Assembly (NCBI GenBank): GCA_005843815.1
Contig: SZYA01000002.1
Location: 1-56,719 of the forward strand
Reading direction: 5' to 3'
DNA length: 56,719 bases
From: Chlorobium sp.
GTDB lineage: Bacteria > Bacteroidota > Chlorobiia > Chlorobiales > Chlorobiaceae
Positions within the stretch are counted from its first letter, which is position 1. Each line of letters begins with the position of its first letter. Position numbers and translations under genes: made by a program. Below are positions 23,846 to 34,654 of this stretch, in pieces. The notes beneath the pieces are model-generated. The model was not told the origin of the DNA. It did not search any database and saw only the letters and a program-made list of their open reading frames with translations.

Positions 23846-24319
23846 ATGAAGACAAGATGGCTCCATCAGCTCCTTGATGCACACAAGGAGATTATTCTTC
23901 AGCAGTGGCTGGAGAGTGCGCTTGGATTGTTTCCCGAAAAAATGGGTTACACCACTCCAGTTGCTATGGAGCTTTCAAGAGCGCTGGAGGTGATTCTCTC
24001 CGGGCTTGGTAGCGGCGAAAGCGATTATAAGGAGGCTCTTGATGATGTTACCCGGATTTTGGCGGTACAGAGCATTCTTCCATCAAAAGCATTGTCAATT
24101 TTTTTGGAACCAAAATTAATGCTGCGCGATATCATGTTGAAAACCACTGTGGCAGGCACCATGACGCAGGAGGTGCAGGAGGCATTCAATTCGCGTTTTG
24201 ACCTGCTTACCCTCGAAGCTTTCGACAGTTATATGCAGCATCGTGAAAAAATATATCAGCTTAAAGTTGAAGAGGGTCGTCGCAGAATGTTTATGGCGTT
24301 GAGGAGGGCTGAGGTATGA
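23846..24319 (+). CDS. dsrT: DsrT, RsbRD-N-like domain protein
   Basis: A 157-residue soluble, helix-rich protein. The pattern WLHQLLDAHKEIILQQWLESALGLFP followed by FNSRFDLLTLEAFDSYMQHREKIYQLKVEEGRRR matches the N-terminal domain of RsbRD-type proteins, which in other systems form stressosome or signalling modules. DsrT sits just before dsrM in green sulfur bacteria and sulfate reducers, as here. Its stop overlaps the dsrM start by four bases. Its function in sulfur oxidation is not settled. Confidence 0.82.
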   Translation: MKTRWLHQLLDAHKEIILQQWLESALGLFPEKMGYTTPVAMELSRALEVILSGLGSGESDYKEALDDVTRILAVQSILPSKALSIFLEPKLMLRDIMLKTTVAGTMTQEVQEAFNSRFDLLTLEAFDSYMQHREKIYQLKVEEGRRRMFMALRRAEV

Positions 24320-25311
24320 AGAAAGTGGTTATGCCGCTTGTTATGGTGGCAATTCTTGCTCTTCTCCCTTTTTTGGGCGTGCAATATGCTGGTTTATCTT
24401 ACCTGTTCGGTGTCATCATTCCCTACACGGCAACTGTTGTCTTGCTGGCTGGTTTTGTCTTCCGTATGGTAGATTGGCTCAGGAGACCTGTTCCATTCAG
24501 GATTCCAACAACCTGCGGACAGGAGAAATCTCTCGAATGGATCAGGTACGACAGGCTGGAAAGTCCCCATCGTTTCTGGGAAGCTGCGGCAAGGGTGCTG
24601 TTTGAAGTGTTCTTTTTTCGCTCTCTTTTCCGCAATACAAAGGCTGAACTGCACAAAGATTCCAATCTTGTCTATGGGTCACACAAGTGGCTCTGGCTTG
24701 GTGGTCTTGCGTTTCATTGGTCTCTGCTCATTATTGTGCTTCGTCACTCACGTTTCTTTTTTCCCATGGTTCCGGGATTTACAGATTTTCTTGAGCATGC
24801 GGATGGTTTTTTTGACATCACCCTTCCAACCTTTTATAGCACCGATGCGGTGGTTCTTGCGGCCATCACCTTTCTTGTTTTTCGCCGGCTGAACGATGCA
24901 AAAATGCGTCTTCTTTCATTGCAGACCGATTACTTTCCGCTTTTTCTCATTGCGGCTATCGTTGTGGTTGGTGTTCTTATGCGCTACGTGGTCAGGCTGA
25001 ATATCATGCCTGTCAAAGACCAGATGTTGAGGCTTGTCAATTTCAGTTTTGATGCTCCAGGAGAGATTGGAGCACTCTTTTATGTCCATCTCTTTTTGGT
25101 ATCAGTTCTTGCGATCTACTTCCCGTTCAGCAAGCTTATGCATGCCGGAGCCATTTTTTTAAGTCCGACACGCAACCTGCCGAATGACAGCCGAGAAAAA
25201 CGGCATATAAACCCCTGGAATGCTGCGATCAAGTTCAGGACATACTCCGAGTATGAGGATGATTACCGCGAAAAGATGAAAAAGGCCAAGCTCCCGATTG
25301 AAAAGCAATAA
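24316..25311 (+). CDS. dsrM: DsrM, cytochrome b-type membrane subunit of DsrMKJOP
   Basis: A 331-residue inner-membrane protein with about six hydrophobic segments and a NarI-like core. His residues that may bind heme b lie in FHWSLLIIVLRHSRFF and YVHLFLVSVLAIYFPFSKLMHAG. It exchanges electrons with quinone and its cytoplasmic partner DsrK. The start overlaps dsrT (ATGA), and the stop is 2 bases before dsrK. Confidence 0.93.
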   Translation: MKKVVMPLVMVAILALLPFLGVQYAGLSYLFGVIIPYTATVVLLAGFVFRMVDWLRRPVPFRIPTTCGQEKSLEWIRYDRLESPHRFWEAAARVLFEVFFFRSLFRNTKAELHKDSNLVYGSHKWLWLGGLAFHWSLLIIVLRHSRFFFPMVPGFTDFLEHADGFFDITLPTFYSTDAVVLAAITFLVFRRLNDAKMRLLSLQTDYFPLFLIAAIVVVGVLMRYVVRLNIMPVKDQMLRLVNFSFDAPGEIGALFYVHLFLVSVLAIYFPFSKLMHAGAIFLSPTRNLPNDSREKRHINPWNAAIKFRTYSEYEDDYREKMKKAKLPIEKQ

Positions 25312-25313
25312 TT

Positions 25314-26963
25314 ATGTCGAAATACGTTCCAAAACTCTCCGAGCTTAAAAAAGAGTTCGACGAAAAGCCCAGTGTTCTGAAAGGGGACTACTCTGCCCGG
25401 GAGTGGTGGGATATTCCCGTAGAGTTTCGCGACGGGAACTGGTGTTTTCCTGGTAAACCGGAGGTGCTTGCTGATCTTGGTTTCGCCAATCCAAGGAAAT
25501 GGATGGCCACTGACGATGATTGGCAATTGCCCGCAGGTTGGCAGAAAATCATCAGTGACGGGTTGCAGAGTCGGCTGAAAAAGTACCGTTCCCTGAAACT
25601 GTTTCTTGATAGCTGTGTTCGTTGTGGAGCCTGTGCCGACAAATGCCATTTTTTTCTGGGTACTGGAGATCCGAAAAATATGCCGGTTGTCCGGGCGGAA
25701 CTGCTTCGCTCGGTCTATCGCCATGATTTTCCTCTTGTCGAGAAGATTCTGAAAGGGTTTTCCGGCTCACGGAAGCTGACGGAAGCGGTGATCAAAGAGT
25801 GGCATATGTATTTTCACCAATGTACCGAATGCCGTCGCTGCTCTGTTTTTTGCCCCTTTGGGATTGATACGGCTGAGATAACCATGATGGTCAGGGAGCT
25901 GCTGAATCTTATCGGAGTGAATAACAACTGGATTCTTGCCCCTGTTTCGAACTGTAACCGTACCGGCAACCACCTTGGTATTGAGCCCCACACCTTTGTA
26001 CAGAATATAATGTCACTTGCTGAGGATGTTGAAGATCTGACAGGTGTTAACGTGGAGCCTACCTTCAATCGCAAAGGTGCGGAAGTGCTCTTCATTACAC
26101 CATCCGGGGATGTGTTCGGTGATCCTGGTGTCTATACGATGATGGGCTACCTGTTACTCTTCAAGCATATCGGTCTTGATTATACCATCAGCACCTACGC
26201 TTCTGAAGGTGGCAATTTTGGTATGTTCACCTCGAACGATATGATGAAGAAACTGAACGCCAAAATGTATCACGAAGCCAAGCGGCTGGGAGTGAAATGG
26301 ATACTTGGTGGTGAGTGTGGACACATGTGGCGTGTGGTGCATCAGTATATGAACACCATGAACGGCCCTGCTGATTTTCTTGAAGTGCCGGTCTCTCCGA
26401 TTACAGGAACCCGGTTTACCAATGCCGCGGCCACCAAAATGGTGCATATCGCAGAATTTACGGCCGATTTGATCTATCATAATAAGCTGAAACTGGATCC
26501 AAAACGGAACGATCATCTGCGGACAACTTTTCACGACTCCTGCAATGTCGCCAGAGGAATGGGCATGTTCGAAGAGCCTCGATATGTTCTTCGGAACGTC
26601 TGCAACAGCTTCCATGAAATGCCGGAGGATACCATAAGAGAGAAGACCTTCTGCTGTGGTTCAGGAAGTGGCCTGAATGCTGAGGAGAACATGGAAAATC
26701 GTATGAGAGGAGGATTTCCAAGAGCCAATGCGGTCAAGCAGGTCAAAGATCGTCATAAGGTTGATTCTCTGGTTACCATTTGTGCTATCGACCGTGCAAG
26801 TCTTCCCCCCTTGATGAAGTATTGGAATCCAGGAGTTTCTGTCTATGGTCTTCATGAACTTGTTGGTAATGCGCTTGTCATGCAGGGAGAGACGAAGAGA
26901 ACAACAGACTTGAGAGAGAACACCATGGCTGGTTTTGAGAATGGAGGTGATGATGAAGAGTAG
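25314..26963 (+). CDS. dsrK: DsrK, HdrD-like FeS subunit of DsrMKJOP
   Basis: A 549-residue cytoplasmic subunit. Two [4Fe-4S] motifs are seen at C101/C104/C107/C111 and C170/C173/C176/C180. The C-terminal CCG-type region contains FHDSCNVARGMG and TFCCGSGSGLN, the site thought to handle the DsrC disulfide or trisulfide, as in heterodisulfide reductase. The N-terminus has WWDIPVEFRDGNWCFPGK, typical of DsrK. The last 11 bases overlap the start of dsrJ. Confidence 0.95.
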   Translation: MSKYVPKLSELKKEFDEKPSVLKGDYSAREWWDIPVEFRDGNWCFPGKPEVLADLGFANPRKWMATDDDWQLPAGWQKIISDGLQSRLKKYRSLKLFLDSCVRCGACADKCHFFLGTGDPKNMPVVRAELLRSVYRHDFPLVEKILKGFSGSRKLTEAVIKEWHMYFHQCTECRRCSVFCPFGIDTAEITMMVRELLNLIGVNNNWILAPVSNCNRTGNHLGIEPHTFVQNIMSLAEDVEDLTGVNVEPTFNRKGAEVLFITPSGDVFGDPGVYTMMGYLLLFKHIGLDYTISTYASEGGNFGMFTSNDMMKKLNAKMYHEAKRLGVKWILGGECGHMWRVVHQYMNTMNGPADFLEVPVSPITGTRFTNAAATKMVHIAEFTADLIYHNKLKLDPKRNDHLRTTFHDSCNVARGMGMFEEPRYVLRNVCNSFHEMPEDTIREKTFCCGSGSGLNAEENMENRMRGGFPRANAVKQVKDRHKVDSLVTICAIDRASLPPLMKYWNPGVSVYGLHELVGNALVMQGETKRTTDLRENTMAGFENGGDDEE

Positions 26964-27333
26964 AAAACTGCTGTGGCTTGTTACTTTTGCTGCGATTTCT
27001 CTTTTTGCTGCATTTTATCTTTTTAGCAATGGTGAGGCAGAAACGCCACAGAAGCCTCTCGCTCGTGTTTCGGTTGTTGACAGCACAAAGTGCATCGCCC
27101 CAAAAGAGTTCATGCGTGCCAACCACATGCAGGTGTTGCATGGATGGGAGAGGTCAGTGGTGCGAGATGGAGATCGAGTGCATATCGCCTCAAATGGGAG
27201 CCGGTTTCAGAAGAGCCTGGGTACTTGTCTTGGTTGTCATAACAACCGGCTTTTCTGCTTTAGCTGTCATAGCTATGCCAATGTTAAACCAAAGTGCTGG
27301 AATTGTCATCTCTCGCCGATGGAAACACAATGA
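26953..27333 (+). CDS. dsrJ: DsrJ, periplasmic triheme cytochrome c
   Basis: A 126-residue cytochrome anchored by an uncleaved N-terminal helix (residues 6-24). Three heme c sites are visible: CLGCH (92-96), CFSCH (102-106) and CWNCH (115-119). C47 (DSTKCIAP) is the candidate for the unusual His/Cys heme ligation described for DsrJ. ATG 26953 is five bases after GGAGG; ATG 26950 is an alternative. The start lies within dsrK and the end overlaps dsrO by 4 bases. Confidence 0.93.
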
Positions 27334-28109
27334 TGAATGAACAACGAAGAGAATTTATCAAGAAAACCGCATTAGGGGTTTTTGTAGGTCTCGGTGCGGC
27401 ATCCGGGCTGGTTCCAGCATTTTCACTGGAAAAAACGGCTCTTCCCGTCTGGGATGAAAAGCCTGTACCAGGAAAAATTCGCTGGGGGATGTTGATTGAT
27501 ACCCGAAAATGCAAGGAGGGTTGTCAGCAGTGTGTTGCAGCGTGCCATCATGAGCATAATGTGCCTGCCTTCAAAAACCGGAGAGAGGAGATTCGATGGA
27601 TCTGGAAAAATTCATACAAGAATGTTTTTCCGACTGCAGATAATGCCGGTGCCAGCAAAGAGATTCAGAGCCGTACCTTTCTCTCGTTGTGCAACCACTG
27701 TGCCGATTCTCCCTGTACACAAATCTGCCCGACCGGAGCAACGTTTAAGCGCTGGGACGGTATTGTTGAGATTGATTATCATCGTTGTATTGGATGTCGC
27801 TTCTGTATGCCAGCTTGCCCTTATGGCTCGCTGAGTTTTAACTGGCAGGACCCGCGGACAGCGATTGTTGATCCGGTTACGGCATATCCGACAAGGGAGC
27901 AGGGCGTCGTTGAAAAGTGCAATTTCTGCTCAGACAGGCTGATCAAGGGTTTGCAGCCAGCGTGCGTTGAAGTGTGTCCTGAGCAGGCTCTTGTTTTCGG
28001 TGATCTGAACGATCCCGCCTCGGATATTCGCGTACTGCTTGAAAGCAATGTTACCATGCAGAGGAAGCCGGAGTTGGGAACCAAACCTTCAGTTTTTTAC
28101 ATTATTTAA
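27330..28109 (+). CDS. dsrO: DsrO, periplasmic ferredoxin-like subunit of DsrMKJOP
   Basis: A 259-residue FeS protein. The N-terminus has a twin-arginine signal ([11 protein letters not shown], Arg 6-7) and hydrophobic core, so it is exported folded. Four Cys clusters follow: [36 protein letters not shown] and a CNFC ... CVEVC set. Start ATG 27330 overlaps the dsrJ stop (ATGA); ATG 27333 is an alternative. It pairs with DsrP and DsrJ on the outer side of the membrane. Confidence 0.93.
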
Positions 28110-28118
28110 CGTTTTCCC

Positions 28119-29204
28119 ATGATTGAGAAAGCTCTGAAAGGAAACCGCAGTTACTGGATCTGGACACTGTTCCTTGGTGCGCTTGTTGCTTCCGGCCTCT
28201 CTGCCTATTATCAGCAGAGATGGCTCGGCCTGACAGTTACAGGTATGGGGCGTGAGGCGAGTTGGGGGTTGTATACAGCACAATTCACCTTTCTTGTTGG
28301 TGTTGCAGCTTCCGCAGTTATGGTCACTCTGCTTCATCAGAAGGAGTTGACTAAAACAGTTATCATTGCGCTGTTTATGGCGGCATCAGCAACCTTGATG
28401 AGTATCCTGTTTGCTGTCGCTGATATGGGAAAGCCCGATCGTCTGCTCAACATCATTTTCTACACAAATCCCCGATCACTGGTTTTCTGGGATCTCCTGT
28501 TTCTTTCGGGTTATCTTGCCACAACTCTCACCGCCGGATGGGCAATGCTTGGCGCTGAGAAGAAGGGGGTGCCCCCGCCTGCGTGGGTCAAGTCGCTCCT
28601 GAATCTCTCAATTCCTTTGGCGGTCGGTATCTTTTTTGCAACAGCATTTCTCTATGGTGGCTTGCCTGATCTAAGTCTCTGGGTGACGGGAGTGCTTGCA
28701 CTACGTTTTATAGCTTCAGCCTTTGCAGCAGGCATGGCGTTGTTGATTTTGGTTACTCTTATCGTGAAGAAAACGAAAGGGTTAGATACCGGAAAAGAGG
28801 CAAGAGAGAAGCTTGCCATGGTAGCAACTTACGCTGGAGTAGCCAATGTTCTGCTGCTTGGTGTTCAATTTTTTACTACATTCTATGGCAATGCACCGTT
28901 ACTATGGTTTTCCCTCATAGCCGGAGTTGTTTCGGTGGCGATTCTTTTGATTCCCGCCTCAAGAAAATCACAGCAGTGGCTTGTCGCGGCCTGCACCGCT
29001 CTTGTTCTCTCCGTATGGGTTGACAAGAGTGCCGGATTGCTGATTGGAGGAGAGCTTTTTCCTGCACCGCTTGGTTCAATTGTTACCTATGCACCAACGT
29101 CAACAGAGATGTTTGTTGTTGCTGGAATCTGGAGTTTTGGTTCCCTGTTGTTTACGGCACTGTTAAAGGTTGTCGTTGCAGTAAAGGCGGAACATAGAGG
29201 TTGA
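28119..29204 (+). CDS. dsrP: DsrP, NrfD-type membrane subunit of DsrMKJOP
   Basis: A 361-residue inner-membrane protein of the NrfD/PsrC family with about ten hydrophobic segments. The early [28 protein letters not shown] and [32 protein letters not shown] segments are typical. It exchanges electrons with quinone and DsrO. It is the last gene before a strong terminator, which marks the end of the core dsr transcript. Confidence 0.93.
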
Positions 29205-29245
29205 TTGCTTGCTGTAGAGTTATCTTTTTTGAACTATTATGTAAG

Positions 29246-29286
29246 GGCTCCCTGCTTTTCGGGTATGCAGGGGGCCAGTTTTTTTT
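29246..29286 (+). terminator. Rho-independent terminator after dsrP
   Basis: A 10-bp stem GGCTCCCTGC (29246-29255) / GCAGGGGGCC (29267-29276), with one G-T pair and an 11-base loop, followed by a run of eight T (29279-29286). It lies between dsrP and dsrV, so the siroheme genes need read-through or their own promoter. Confidence 0.85.
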
Positions 29287-29341
29287 GATGGAAGCTTTTT
29301 GTCATGGGAGTTTTACGGGTTTTACGGTAAAAGGAGAGATC

Positions 29342-29791
29342 ATGAAGAGTTTTTTGCCACTGAATATCAGGATAGATAACAAGAAAATTCTCTTTGTTGG
29401 GGGTGGTAAAATTGCACTCCACAAGATTAAGTCAGTGGTGCAGTACACCCGAAATATTTCTGTTGTTTCGCCTGAGATTCAGGACGAGTTGCATCAGATG
29501 GGCTTTACAGAGATTTGTAAAGAGTATGAAACCTCAGATCTTGATGGCTATTTTCTGGTTTATGCCTGTACCAACAACTTTGAGGTGAACCGAAGGATAA
29601 AAGAGGATGCGGCAGATTACGGAATTCTGGTCAATGTTGTTGATAACAGGGAGCTATCAGATTTTATCTCACCAGCGGTTATCAAGCAGGATGAGATGAC
29701 CATTGCGGTCTCTTCAAATGGTGAAAATGTAAAAAAATCAGTGGAGTGGCGGAATAAATTGAAATCGATCGTGCAACGTGGTAATTTCTGA
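29342..29791 (+). CDS. dsrV: DsrV, precorrin-2 dehydrogenase / sirohydrochlorin ferrochelatase-like
   Basis: A 149-residue protein homologous to the N-terminal part of CysG (Met8p-like). The NAD-binding segment [15 protein letters not shown] is near residue 14, and [29 protein letters not shown] is the typical core. It converts precorrin-2 to sirohydrochlorin and possibly inserts iron, for the siroheme of DsrAB. ATG 29342 with AAAGGAGAG upstream is chosen; earlier in-frame starts run through the terminator and are rejected. The length is short for a full CysG N-terminal module (about 210), so the dimerisation part is missing. Confidence 0.87.
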
Positions 29792-29821
29792 GTCACTTGT
29801 TTCAATAAGAGGAATGAAGTC

Positions 29822-30856
29822 ATGAAGAAGAAAGCAGATACTCATATACCGGTTCCGGATCCGCAGAAAAGGGGGTATGTCTATATTATTGGTGCCGGTC
29901 CGGGTGATCCGGAACTGCTGACCATCAAGGCCGCGAGGGTTTTACGTGAGGCGGACGTTATTCTTTATGATGATCTGGTCAGCAGTGACCTTGTCGCACA
30001 GTTCAATGCGCGTAAAATCTATACCGGAAAACGCAAGGACAGTCACCATTTTGAGCAGGATGCCATCAACGACGAGATTCTTCGTCATGCACGTGATGGA
30101 AAAATAGTTGCACGGCTCAAAGGTGGAGATCCCTTTATTTTTGGACGTGGTGGCGAAGAGATAGAGGTGCTGAGAGAGAATGGGATAGGGTACGAGATTA
30201 TACCTGGTATTACCGCTGCACATGGTGCCAGCGCTTATACAGAGATACCGCTGACGTTGAGAAAAGTCTCCTCCTCAGTCGCTTTTTGTACCGGTCATCC
30301 GGTCAGTAAAATCCAGGTGCCCGATGCCGATACTCTTGTCTACTACATGGTGGCCTCTACGGTTCATGAGGTGCTTGATGCGGTGGCACTACAGGGGCGT
30401 GAGGATGCGACCCCTGTTGCAATTGTGCAGAATGCGACGAGGTATAATCAGAACATTATTACCGGTACATTGGGTGAGTTGAGAAAAGGAGACAAGCAGG
30501 TTTATTCCCCGGCGCTTCTGATTATCGGCGATAATATTCGGCACTCCATTGAGGATAACTGGTACTCCAAAAAGAAAAAAATAGTGATCGCAGGGGAGGA
30601 TTTCAGCATATCCAATGCTGCTGACTCTGTAAAGGTATATTTTACCTGCAAGCGTGAGCATGCTGATTATACTGCCGACGAGCGGGATGAACCTATAGAT
30701 CTCGAGTATATTGATGAGATCTATTTTTCATCACCATCTTGTGTCAGGGATTTCCATACCGCCTATCAGTCGCTACCTGAAAAAATCAGGGTGATAACGG
30801 TCGATCAGGCCACTCAAGAGGAGTATGAAATGCTTTTCGCCAAGGGCGGGAAATGA
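29822..30856 (+). CDS. dsrW: DsrW, uroporphyrinogen-III C-methyltransferase with extra C-terminal domain
   Basis: A 344-residue SUMT/CobA-type enzyme that makes precorrin-2. Motifs: [37 protein letters not shown] and [18 protein letters not shown], all typical. The methyltransferase fold ends near residue 245. The last 95 residues or so ([13 protein letters not shown] ... [13 protein letters not shown] ... [16 protein letters not shown]) resemble the second half of uroporphyrinogen-III synthase (HemD) but are too short to be a working one. An AGAGGA site precedes the ATG, 30 bases after dsrV. It supplies siroheme with DsrV and DsrN. Confidence 0.88.
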
Positions 30857-31085: not shown

Positions 31086-31820
31086 TCAAAAGACTTTCGT
31101 AAAAGAGCTTATCCCTAACGTGCCGGAGAGTTTGAACCCTTCTCCGTAGAGTGTACCGATTTGTTCTCCAAGGTAGCGGGCCCGGGCTTCGAGGCCGGTG
31201 AGGAATTCCCGGCGTTTGATGAGTGTTTTTGGTTCTTCCGCCCTTCCCTCCTTAAAGAACTGTGTTCCAAAGGCAAGAACGCCTTTTCTTGATGCTTCGA
31301 AGGTTGTTGAGATATCAACGATAATGTCTGGTTCAAGGTGTTTGAACTGGGTATAGTAGAGCAGGTGTTTGGGACGGTGGGGCACCTGTGCCGTGCCGTT
31401 TATGGTGGTGGTGAGTTGTTGCAGACCGGCATAGTAGCAAGCCTCTGTCACCAGTTTTGAGGCTTTGATGTGGTCGGGGTGGCGTTCGTCGGGTGGGTTG
31501 GCAAACACGACGGTTGGTCTGAACTTCCTGATCACCTTGATTATTTCAGCAATGTTCTCTTCAGTATGAAAGAGTTTGGAGTCGCCCAGGTCAAGGGTGG
31601 TTCTGCTCTGGTAGCCCATCAGTAATGTTGCTGTTGCAGCCTCTTGTTTTCTTGTTTCAGGGGTGCCGTGTGTCCCCATTTCGCCTCTGGTGAGATCGCA
31701 TACCGCGACGCTCTTCCCTTCGTTCATGATGTTAAGCAGCGTTGCCCCGCATGAAAGTTCTACATCATCGGGGTGGGCGCCATAGGCAAGCGCATAAACT
31801 GGTTCTGGTGATTGTTCCAA
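31086..31820 (-). CDS. bshB1: BshB-type deacetylase (bacillithiol pathway)
   Basis: A 244-residue LmbE/PIG-L family zinc hydrolase. The zinc-binding motif AHPDDVELSCGAT is at residues 15-27, with PDERHPDH further on as the second metal motif. BshB1 removes the acetyl group from GlcNAc-malate in bacillithiol synthesis, and green sulfur bacteria are known to make N-methyl-bacillithiol. A TTG at 31820 with AGGA four bases upstream is the likely start. It is convergent with dsrW, with the palindromic repeat in between. Confidence 0.82.
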   Translation of the reverse strand: MEQSPEPVYALAYGAHPDDVELSCGATLLNIMNEGKSVAVCDLTRGEMGTHGTPETRKQEAATATLLMGYQSRTTLDLGDSKLFHTEENIAEIIKVIRKFRPTVVFANPPDERHPDHIKASKLVTEACYYAGLQQLTTTINGTAQVPHRPKHLLYYTQFKHLEPDIIVDISTTFEASRKGVLAFGTQFFKEGRAEEPKTLIKRREFLTGLEARARYLGEQIGTLYGEGFKLSGTLGISSFTKVF

Positions 31821-32414: not shown

Positions 32415-33116
32415 TCAGAGTTGATTAGCTTGAACAGGCGGGGCTGTAACAACCTCTTTTGGAGTGAAGCGGATCTCTGTGACATCTTTCTTCTGCCTGT
32501 TTCCTGAGGTACCACCCATTCCCCCCGGCACAAAGGAGTTGTTCATGAGCTGCCCAAGCCCGAGGCTGACGTTGTTGAAGAGGTTCTGTATTTGGTTTGA
32601 GCTGCCAACTGTATTCAGGTTTTCGAGCAAACCGGTCCATAATTTGCCGAGTTCCTGAAAAGAGTTTTGGGTGGTGGAGGTCACGCCATCAATCAGTTGC
32701 CCGGAAACGGAGGTAACATTGTTGAAAATCTCCTGTACGGGTTGTGAATTGATGGTGGAGGTCACGCCGTCAATCAGTTGTCCTGTCGCCGAAGTGACAG
32801 AATTGATCACTCCCTGAATTGATTCGACCGTAATGGTAGAGGTGACACCGTCAATCAGTTGTCCGGTAGCTGAACTGACAGAATTGAACACTCCCTGTAC
32901 TGGCTCAGATTTGATTGTAGAGGAGACACCTTCAATAATCATTCCGGTCGCTGAGCTTACCGAACTGATTGCCTCCTGCACCGATTCAATTGTTGAGTCA
33001 ATCAAGGAACCCATGCTTCCAATCAGATGAGCCATGTCACCATTTCCGATGCCGTTTTCCGGATTGCCCGTTGAGGCAGGTGTACCCGCCGACTTGCTGA
33101 GTTCTTCTGCAGCCAT
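32415..33116 (-). CDS. Tandem-repeat amphipathic protein, possible chlorosome envelope protein
   Basis: A 233-residue protein. Residues 44-151 contain four repeats of 27 residues (core SATGQLIDGVTSTI), and a fifth degenerate copy sits near 174-196. The repeats alternate small, hydrophobic and Ser/Thr residues, giving long amphipathic helices. No signal peptide is seen. Such composition resembles chlorosome envelope proteins of the CsmC/CsmD/CsmH type, and the next gene is a carotenoid desaturase, whose product is stored in chlorosomes. This is an inference, as no signature specific to those families was proven. The start MAAEELSK (33116) is preferred; the frame extends to a TTG at 33170. Confidence 0.6.
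   Translation of the reverse strand: MAAEELSKSAGTPASTGNPENGIGNGDMAHLIGSMGSLIDSTIESVQEAISSVSSATGMIIEGVSSTIKSEPVQGVFNSVSSATGQLIDGVTSTITVESIQGVINSVTSATGQLIDGVTSTINSQPVQEIFNNVTSVSGQLIDGVTSTTQNSFQELGKLWTGLLENLNTVGSSNQIQNLFNNVSLGLGQLMNNSFVPGGMGGTSGNRQKKDVTEIRFTPKEVVTAPPVQANQL
32664..32987 (-). repeat. Four in-frame 81-bp coding repeats
   Basis: Four consecutive 81-bp units encode the 27-residue repeats of the overlapping protein. Units 2 and 3 are most alike. No spacers lie between them, so this is not a CRISPR array. Confidence 0.75.
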
Positions 33117-33292: not shown

Positions 33293-34654
33293 TCAGTTGC
33301 CGAATCTGCTGAGCAGCTTTTCTGCCACCAGCTTTCCGCTCAGCGCCGCTCCTTCCATTGAAGCCAGATAGTGCTGATCGGTGTAGTCACCCGCAAGGAA
33401 AAAGTTTTTGACAGGGCTGATCTGGTCAGGGCGATATTTGTCGACACCGGGTACTGCCTTATAGACAGACTGGGGAATTTTGACAATGGTTGATTTCAAA
33501 AGTTTGGCATCGCAAGATTTCGGGAAACGATTATGAATCTCCTTGATGACGATATCGGTAATAACGTCATTGGGCATATCCAGCAACTGATGCGCAGGAG
33601 CGAGCACCAGGCTCATGACACTGCCCCCGTTTGCTGTGCCCATCCCGTTCTGGAAGTCATCCGGGCAGGTGATTGAGACATCGGCAAAGGTTGCAAAAAG
33701 AGTGCCTTGCGAAAACATGAGATTATCGATATCGGTAATTTTCCGGTCAAACCAGAGTTGGCAGTTTATGACAGGGCTGCCGACGAATTCGTGCAGGTTT
33801 CGGAAATATTTGTGTGCAAGCCATTGCGGGGGCAGAATTTTTTTGAGGTTGTGTACAGGCAGTGCCGAGATATAGGCATCAGCCACTATTTTATGACCAT
33901 CCCGTAGTACCGCCTCCTTGATGGTATCATCGCTGTTCAGCTCAAACCGGCTCAGTTTTGCATCAACAAAAATGCGCCCCCCCTTGCTCTGGATATATTG
34001 ACGAATCGGTTCAATCATGGAGTCGCCGGGGTTTTTGCGGAAAAAAGCAAACCTTGTTGCTGTGTAATTGGTGCCAAAATAGTTGAAAATGGTAATCATC
34101 GGACGGGCGCTGATGATGTTGGGCTCAATGAAATTCATGGCCAGGGCAATGGCTCGCCACAGTTTTTGCAGAGAGTGTTCTGAAGCTCCTTTTCGCCGAT
34201 GCCACTCTGAATAGGTCATACCATCCTGACTGCGGAAATAGGCTTCATTGCCGGTAATAGCGGGGTAGAGCCCCTTTATAAGCGAAAGTTTATCCCGGAG
34301 TGTGAGAAAATCTGTCTGGAGACAGCCCATCACCTCTCCCCATGGACTTGGCAAGTTGGCTTTTTTAAAAACCGTCAGCATGCCGTTCTCCTCAGCATAG
34401 ATAAGAGAGTGCTCTTTCCACTGATAGTTATCTTCTGCGCCAACGCGTTTCAGATATTTCTGGAGCTGTTCATAGCCACCGAAAACGATGTGCAGTCCCG
34501 ATTCTATTGAGTCACCCTCACTGTCTTTCCAAACTGAAACTTTACCGCCAAGGACCTTGCGTTTTTCATAGATCTCTACCGAGTGGCCTTTATCGACAAG
34601 TTCCACTGCTGCTGCAAGGCCTGCCAATCCAGCGCCGAAAATTGCTATTTTCAT
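33293..34654 (-). CDS. crtQ: Plant-type carotene desaturase, CrtQ-like
   Basis: A 453-residue FAD-dependent desaturase. The N-terminus MKIAIFGAGLAGLAAAVELVDKG is the FAD-binding Rossmann motif; GGKVSVWKDSEGDSIESGLHIVFGGYE follows, as in plant and cyanobacterial phytoene/zeta-carotene desaturases. The segment ISARPMITIFNYFGTN and the C-terminal AGDYTDQHYLASMEGAALSG are typical. Green sulfur bacteria use CrtP and CrtQ of this family plus CrtH; similarity here is closer to the zeta-carotene desaturase CrtQ, but CrtP is not fully excluded. It is on the same strand as, and upstream of, the repeat-protein gene. Confidence 0.75.
   Translation of the reverse strand: MKIAIFGAGLAGLAAAVELVDKGHSVEIYEKRKVLGGKVSVWKDSEGDSIESGLHIVFGGYEQLQKYLKRVGAEDNYQWKEHSLIYAEENGMLTVFKKANLPSPWGEVMGCLQTDFLTLRDKLSLIKGLYPAITGNEAYFRSQDGMTYSEWHRRKGASEHSLQKLWRAIALAMNFIEPNIISARPMITIFNYFGTNYTATRFAFFRKNPGDSMIEPIRQYIQSKGGRIFVDAKLSRFELNSDDTIKEAVLRDGHKIVADAYISALPVHNLKKILPPQWLAHKYFRNLHEFVGSPVINCQLWFDRKITDIDNLMFSQGTLFATFADVSITCPDDFQNGMGTANGGSVMSLVLAPAHQLLDMPNDVITDIVIKEIHNRFPKSCDAKLLKSTIVKIPQSVYKAVPGVDKYRPDQISPVKNFFLAGDYTDQHYLASMEGAALSGKLVAEKLLSRFGN

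Follow-up and report, generated by a model that had tools for sequence, protein, structure and literature searches.

We have assigned the gene at positions 32415 to 33116, on the minus strand of a 56,719-nucleotide stretch of Chlorobium sp. DNA (the window), to csmH, encoding the known chlorosome envelope protein H, with a probability of about 0.95. The assignment follows from a match to the family model TIGR03058, from the mass of the presumed C. tepidum orthologue, and from the presence of CsmA and CsmC genes in the same genome. The protein is an ordinary and already known member of its family, with the family-typical repeat and neighbourhood.

Assignment of the gene to csmH

The csmH open reading frame begins with an ATG at 33116 and its stop codon ends at 32415, giving a product of 233 residues (23.9 kDa, pI 4.3) that contains neither cysteine nor tyrosine. 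A TTG situated 54 nt upstream of the ATG is a possible alternative start, but the MAAEEL-type start is common to csmH orthologues. Substitutions relative to the nearest relative, L062, are distributed 11/10/54 over codon positions 1, 2 and 3, which shows that the gene is coding. The product matches the NCBIfam model TIGR03058 (rpt_csmH, 'chlorosome envelope protein H'), an equivalog-domain model of the 27-residue unit with a cut-off of 60 bits, at 148.3 bits (E 3.3e-44) in four domains, and the gene call is further supported by the start shared with orthologues and by gene order. Of 148 genomes sampled across the phylum, 31 match TIGR03058, 23 of them over the cut-off; all 31 are green sulfur bacteria of the window's family, and the other families sampled gave no match.

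In addition to csmH, the genome has csmA (two copies of PF02043) and csmC (PF11098), and with CsmA-type and CsmC genes encoded together the host is predicted to make chlorosomes. The two CsmA-type genes are at G000:C67:10206-10439 (minus) and G000:C72:14000-14227 (plus), one of them beside csmC, and the other may be csmE. We also note that the genome has three CsmB-related genes (L180, L181 and L185) compared with two each in G129 and G091, and that a 99%-complete relative, G001, has csmH and gives no match to CsmC (PF11098).

Comparison with a well-described species relies on genome G129, which we take, partly from how its csmC, csmB and crt genes are spaced, to be that of C. tepidum (TLS). 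Its presumed orthologue is 212 residues long (21.8 kDa) and matches TIGR03058 at 97.7 bits, and csmC and csmB are spaced in G129 as expected from the gene numbers CT1943 and CT2054 (PMC12285230). CsmH of C. tepidum has been published as a 21.6 kDa protein of the chlorosome envelope (PMC3175400), and the agreement between the two masses supports the CsmH identity. CsmH is likewise placed among the C. tepidum envelope proteins elsewhere (PMC9316378), and csmH is among the chlorosome genes of Prosthecochloris (PMC5095472). The window's protein is orthologous to CsmH of C. tepidum and other Chlorobiaceae, sharing the 27-residue repeat model, the N-terminal motif, the C-terminal region and the gene neighbourhood, but it has four full units where the G129 protein has two, and the C-terminal tails differ.

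The repeat array and its age

Residues 42–149 of CsmH consist of four tandem, gapless 27-residue units: TIESVQEAISSVSSATGMIIEGVSSTI (unit 1, 32913–32993), KSEPVQGVFNSVSSATGQLIDGVTSTI (unit 2, 32832–32912), TVESIQGVINSVTSATGQLIDGVTSTI (unit 3, 32751–32831) and NSQPVQEIFNNVTSVSGQLIDGVTSTT (unit 4, 32670–32750), all on the minus strand, as are the other segments of the gene. The 81-bp period is found by TRF, and the self-match of the protein at an offset of 27 is 66 residues, compared with at most 34 in 2000 shuffles. At 100 degrees the helical hydrophobic moment of the averaged unit comes to 0.35, a value reached by none of 2000 shuffles, whose mean was 0.12. An N-terminal module (residues 1–71, 32904–33116), delimited by hhalign and by whole-genome matches in both directions, extends to about the end of unit 1. 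The array is followed by a C-terminal amphipathic region (residues 150–195, 32532–32669) with the cores FQELGKLWTGLLENLN and QIQNLFNNVSLGLGQL, a hydrophobic moment of about 0.5 and an hhalign value of 91% to the repeats; the repeat HMM gives a weak, degenerate match within it at residues ~173–190. Orthologue alignment defines a variable tail (residues 196–233) that, with the stop codon, occupies 32415–32531.

The preliminary description of this DNA had proposed four 27-residue amphipathic repeats, and both the number and the amphipathic character are borne out by these measurements. It had also called the repeats near-identical and the product of a recent 81-bp duplication, and in this genome neither holds. 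The units are 41–78% identical to each other in protein and 54–78% in DNA, whereas each is 85–94% identical in DNA to the unit at the matching position in L062. Because the units are closer to their positional counterparts than to their sisters, the array predates the split from L062, and the four-unit array in this genome is old and inherited.

The expected variation in repeat number is found between species. We counted full units, leaving partial ones out, in 46 complete csmH genes (two of the records, G006 and L063, appear to be one), and 23 have two units, 11 have three and 12 have four. On a quick gene tree built from the Dut, BshB1 and desaturase proteins of 44 loci, repeat number changes at least seven times. 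The window's gene falls in a clade of 11 genes (SH-aLRT 98) of which ten have four units, and the change to four units took place in an ancestor of the clade containing this genome; in a second genus (g9), most members have two. Recent duplication does hold for some relatives (G002, G077, G103 and G121), in which pairs of units are 89–98% identical in DNA. Both this near-identity and the differences in copy number between species would fit a surface switch of variable phase or length, built on a tandem repeat that expanded recently and changes fast. We nonetheless consider such a switch improbable, as the units here are much closer to their L062 counterparts than to one another, and four units are kept in nearly all genes of the supported clade around the window's gene.

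Gene neighbourhood and alternative identities

A carotenoid desaturase of the CrtP/CrtQ type (33293–34654, minus strand) is situated 176 bp upstream of csmH on the same strand, so that the carotenoid gene described earlier as its neighbour is indeed present. The desaturase scores 431 bits against TIGR02731 (phytoene) and 352 bits against TIGR02732 (zeta-carotene), both below the equivalog cut-offs, and has one paralogue elsewhere in the genome, 37% identical to it. In G129 the desaturase adjoining csmH maps to 1.325 Mb and its paralogue to 0.770 Mb; crtQ and crtP of C. tepidum are CT1414 and CT0807, which would make the csmH neighbour CrtQ, and the csmH-adjoining desaturase is probably CrtQ. 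In most genomes of the family, G129 among them, the genes follow one another as carotene desaturase, csmH, dut, bshB1, with inserts in some; in several genomes no desaturase was detected in the stretch that was read.

Further along the window, bshB1, for a bacillithiol biosynthesis deacetylase (31086–31820, minus strand), matches TIGR04001 at 303 bits (cut-off 182.5), and it is also near dut and csmH in relatives. The dsrMKOP sulfur oxidation genes are at 24316–29204 on the plus strand, with DsrM, DsrK and DsrO above their NCBIfam cut-offs and DsrP at 303 bits against a cut-off of 350. They are followed at 29201–30856 by siroheme synthesis genes, an arrangement typical for green sulfur bacteria.

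The preliminary description had read the adjoining carotenoid gene and the Csm-like composition as signs of a chlorosome surface protein, possibly a new or diverged one. The first part is supported by the TIGR03058 match. The second, a protein outside the known Csm set, is refuted by a match to the curated CsmH model so far above its cut-off, together with the typical repeat and the conserved family gene order, and a search of the genome for further CsmH-like genes gave only a weak match, to a 74-residue protein; we regard this second reading as very improbable. Profile searches had been proposed against Csm and phasin families, and the outcome is positive for CsmH, whose model is in NCBIfam only and not in Pfam, and negative for the CsmC/CsmD motif family, tested through CsmC, which is absent from the Pfam scan and gives 1.6% by hhalign, and for phasins, none of which is among the Pfam matches with E up to 1. 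CsmC thus belongs to the envelope of the same organelle and is encoded in the same genome, but has no detected homology to CsmH. Amphipathic repeats rich in Ser, Gly, Thr and Val could also serve as a coat on other hydrophobic bodies, but a phasin-like or storage-granule coat protein resembling CsmH only through low-complexity amphipathic sequence is equally improbable, since the Pfam scan gave nothing above gathering score, phasin or other, the repeat match is position-specific, and orthologues are confined to the window's Chlorobiaceae-type family. A PDB sequence search with CsmH gave chance matches only, and tblastn matches on plasmids proved to be phage tail tape-measure proteins of ~26% identity, which we judge to be compositional.

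A related small protein and the possible role of the repeats

Residues 1–71 of CsmH are homologous to a protein of 71–76 residues (hhalign probability 97%, E 3.6e-11) encoded outside the window at G000:C35:18344-18565 on the plus strand (L141), with a counterpart, L157, in G129; both lie between a mannose-1-phosphate guanylyltransferase gene and ileS. Each of the 21 family genomes tested encodes this small protein, next to ileS in every case, and the guanylyltransferase gene was also found in 20 of the 21 stretches. Substitutions in its gene are mainly at third codon positions, indicating that it is coding, and NCBIfam holds no named family for it. It includes roughly one repeat unit but, unlike CsmH, is without tandem repeats and a C-terminal region, and it is a separate gene. 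Identity with CsmB or CsmF was ruled out, as csmB of G129 is at 1.950 Mb and a CsmB-related gene, taken to be CsmF, at 0.984 Mb. CsmB and CsmF are similar in size to the N-terminal module of CsmH and may be linked to CsmH through the small protein in two hhalign steps (73%, then 97%), the first of them weak, whereas direct profile comparison with CsmH gives 11%, which is not significant. We tentatively suggest that the small protein may be a chlorosome envelope protein that has escaped recognition. In the same proposal, which we hold to be less likely than not, CsmH would descend from a one-unit ancestor of this kind whose 81-bp unit was duplicated step by step, with the number of repeats tuned in each lineage.

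An AlphaFold model of CsmH, computed from an input of five sequences from the window and related loci, places helices over the repeats, but its mean pLDDT of 35 makes it unusable as evidence, and Foldseek found no match with it; helices placed on the surface are thus a prediction from the sequence. With that basis, we favor a mechanism in which each CsmH unit would form a short amphipathic helix lying on the galactolipid monolayer that encloses the pigment aggregate. The number of repeats might then set the length of surface covered by each CsmH molecule and so tune coat packing, chlorosome size or shape, although we hold this tuning to be doubtful. The role would be neither essential nor catalytic. 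Loss of any single one of the nine non-CsmA proteins is reported to change the phenotype little (PMC3175400), so that the role of CsmH is most likely a redundant structural one, and any part in size or shape would be subtle or redundant.

These results settle the annotation of csmH in this genome and correct the view that its repeats were duplicated recently. The two-, three- and four-repeat forms of csmH across green sulfur bacteria constitute a small natural series for testing what the repeats do, and could be used to test a role in chlorosome size or surface coverage. The ileS-linked small protein is a cheap candidate for checking in chlorosome proteomes.
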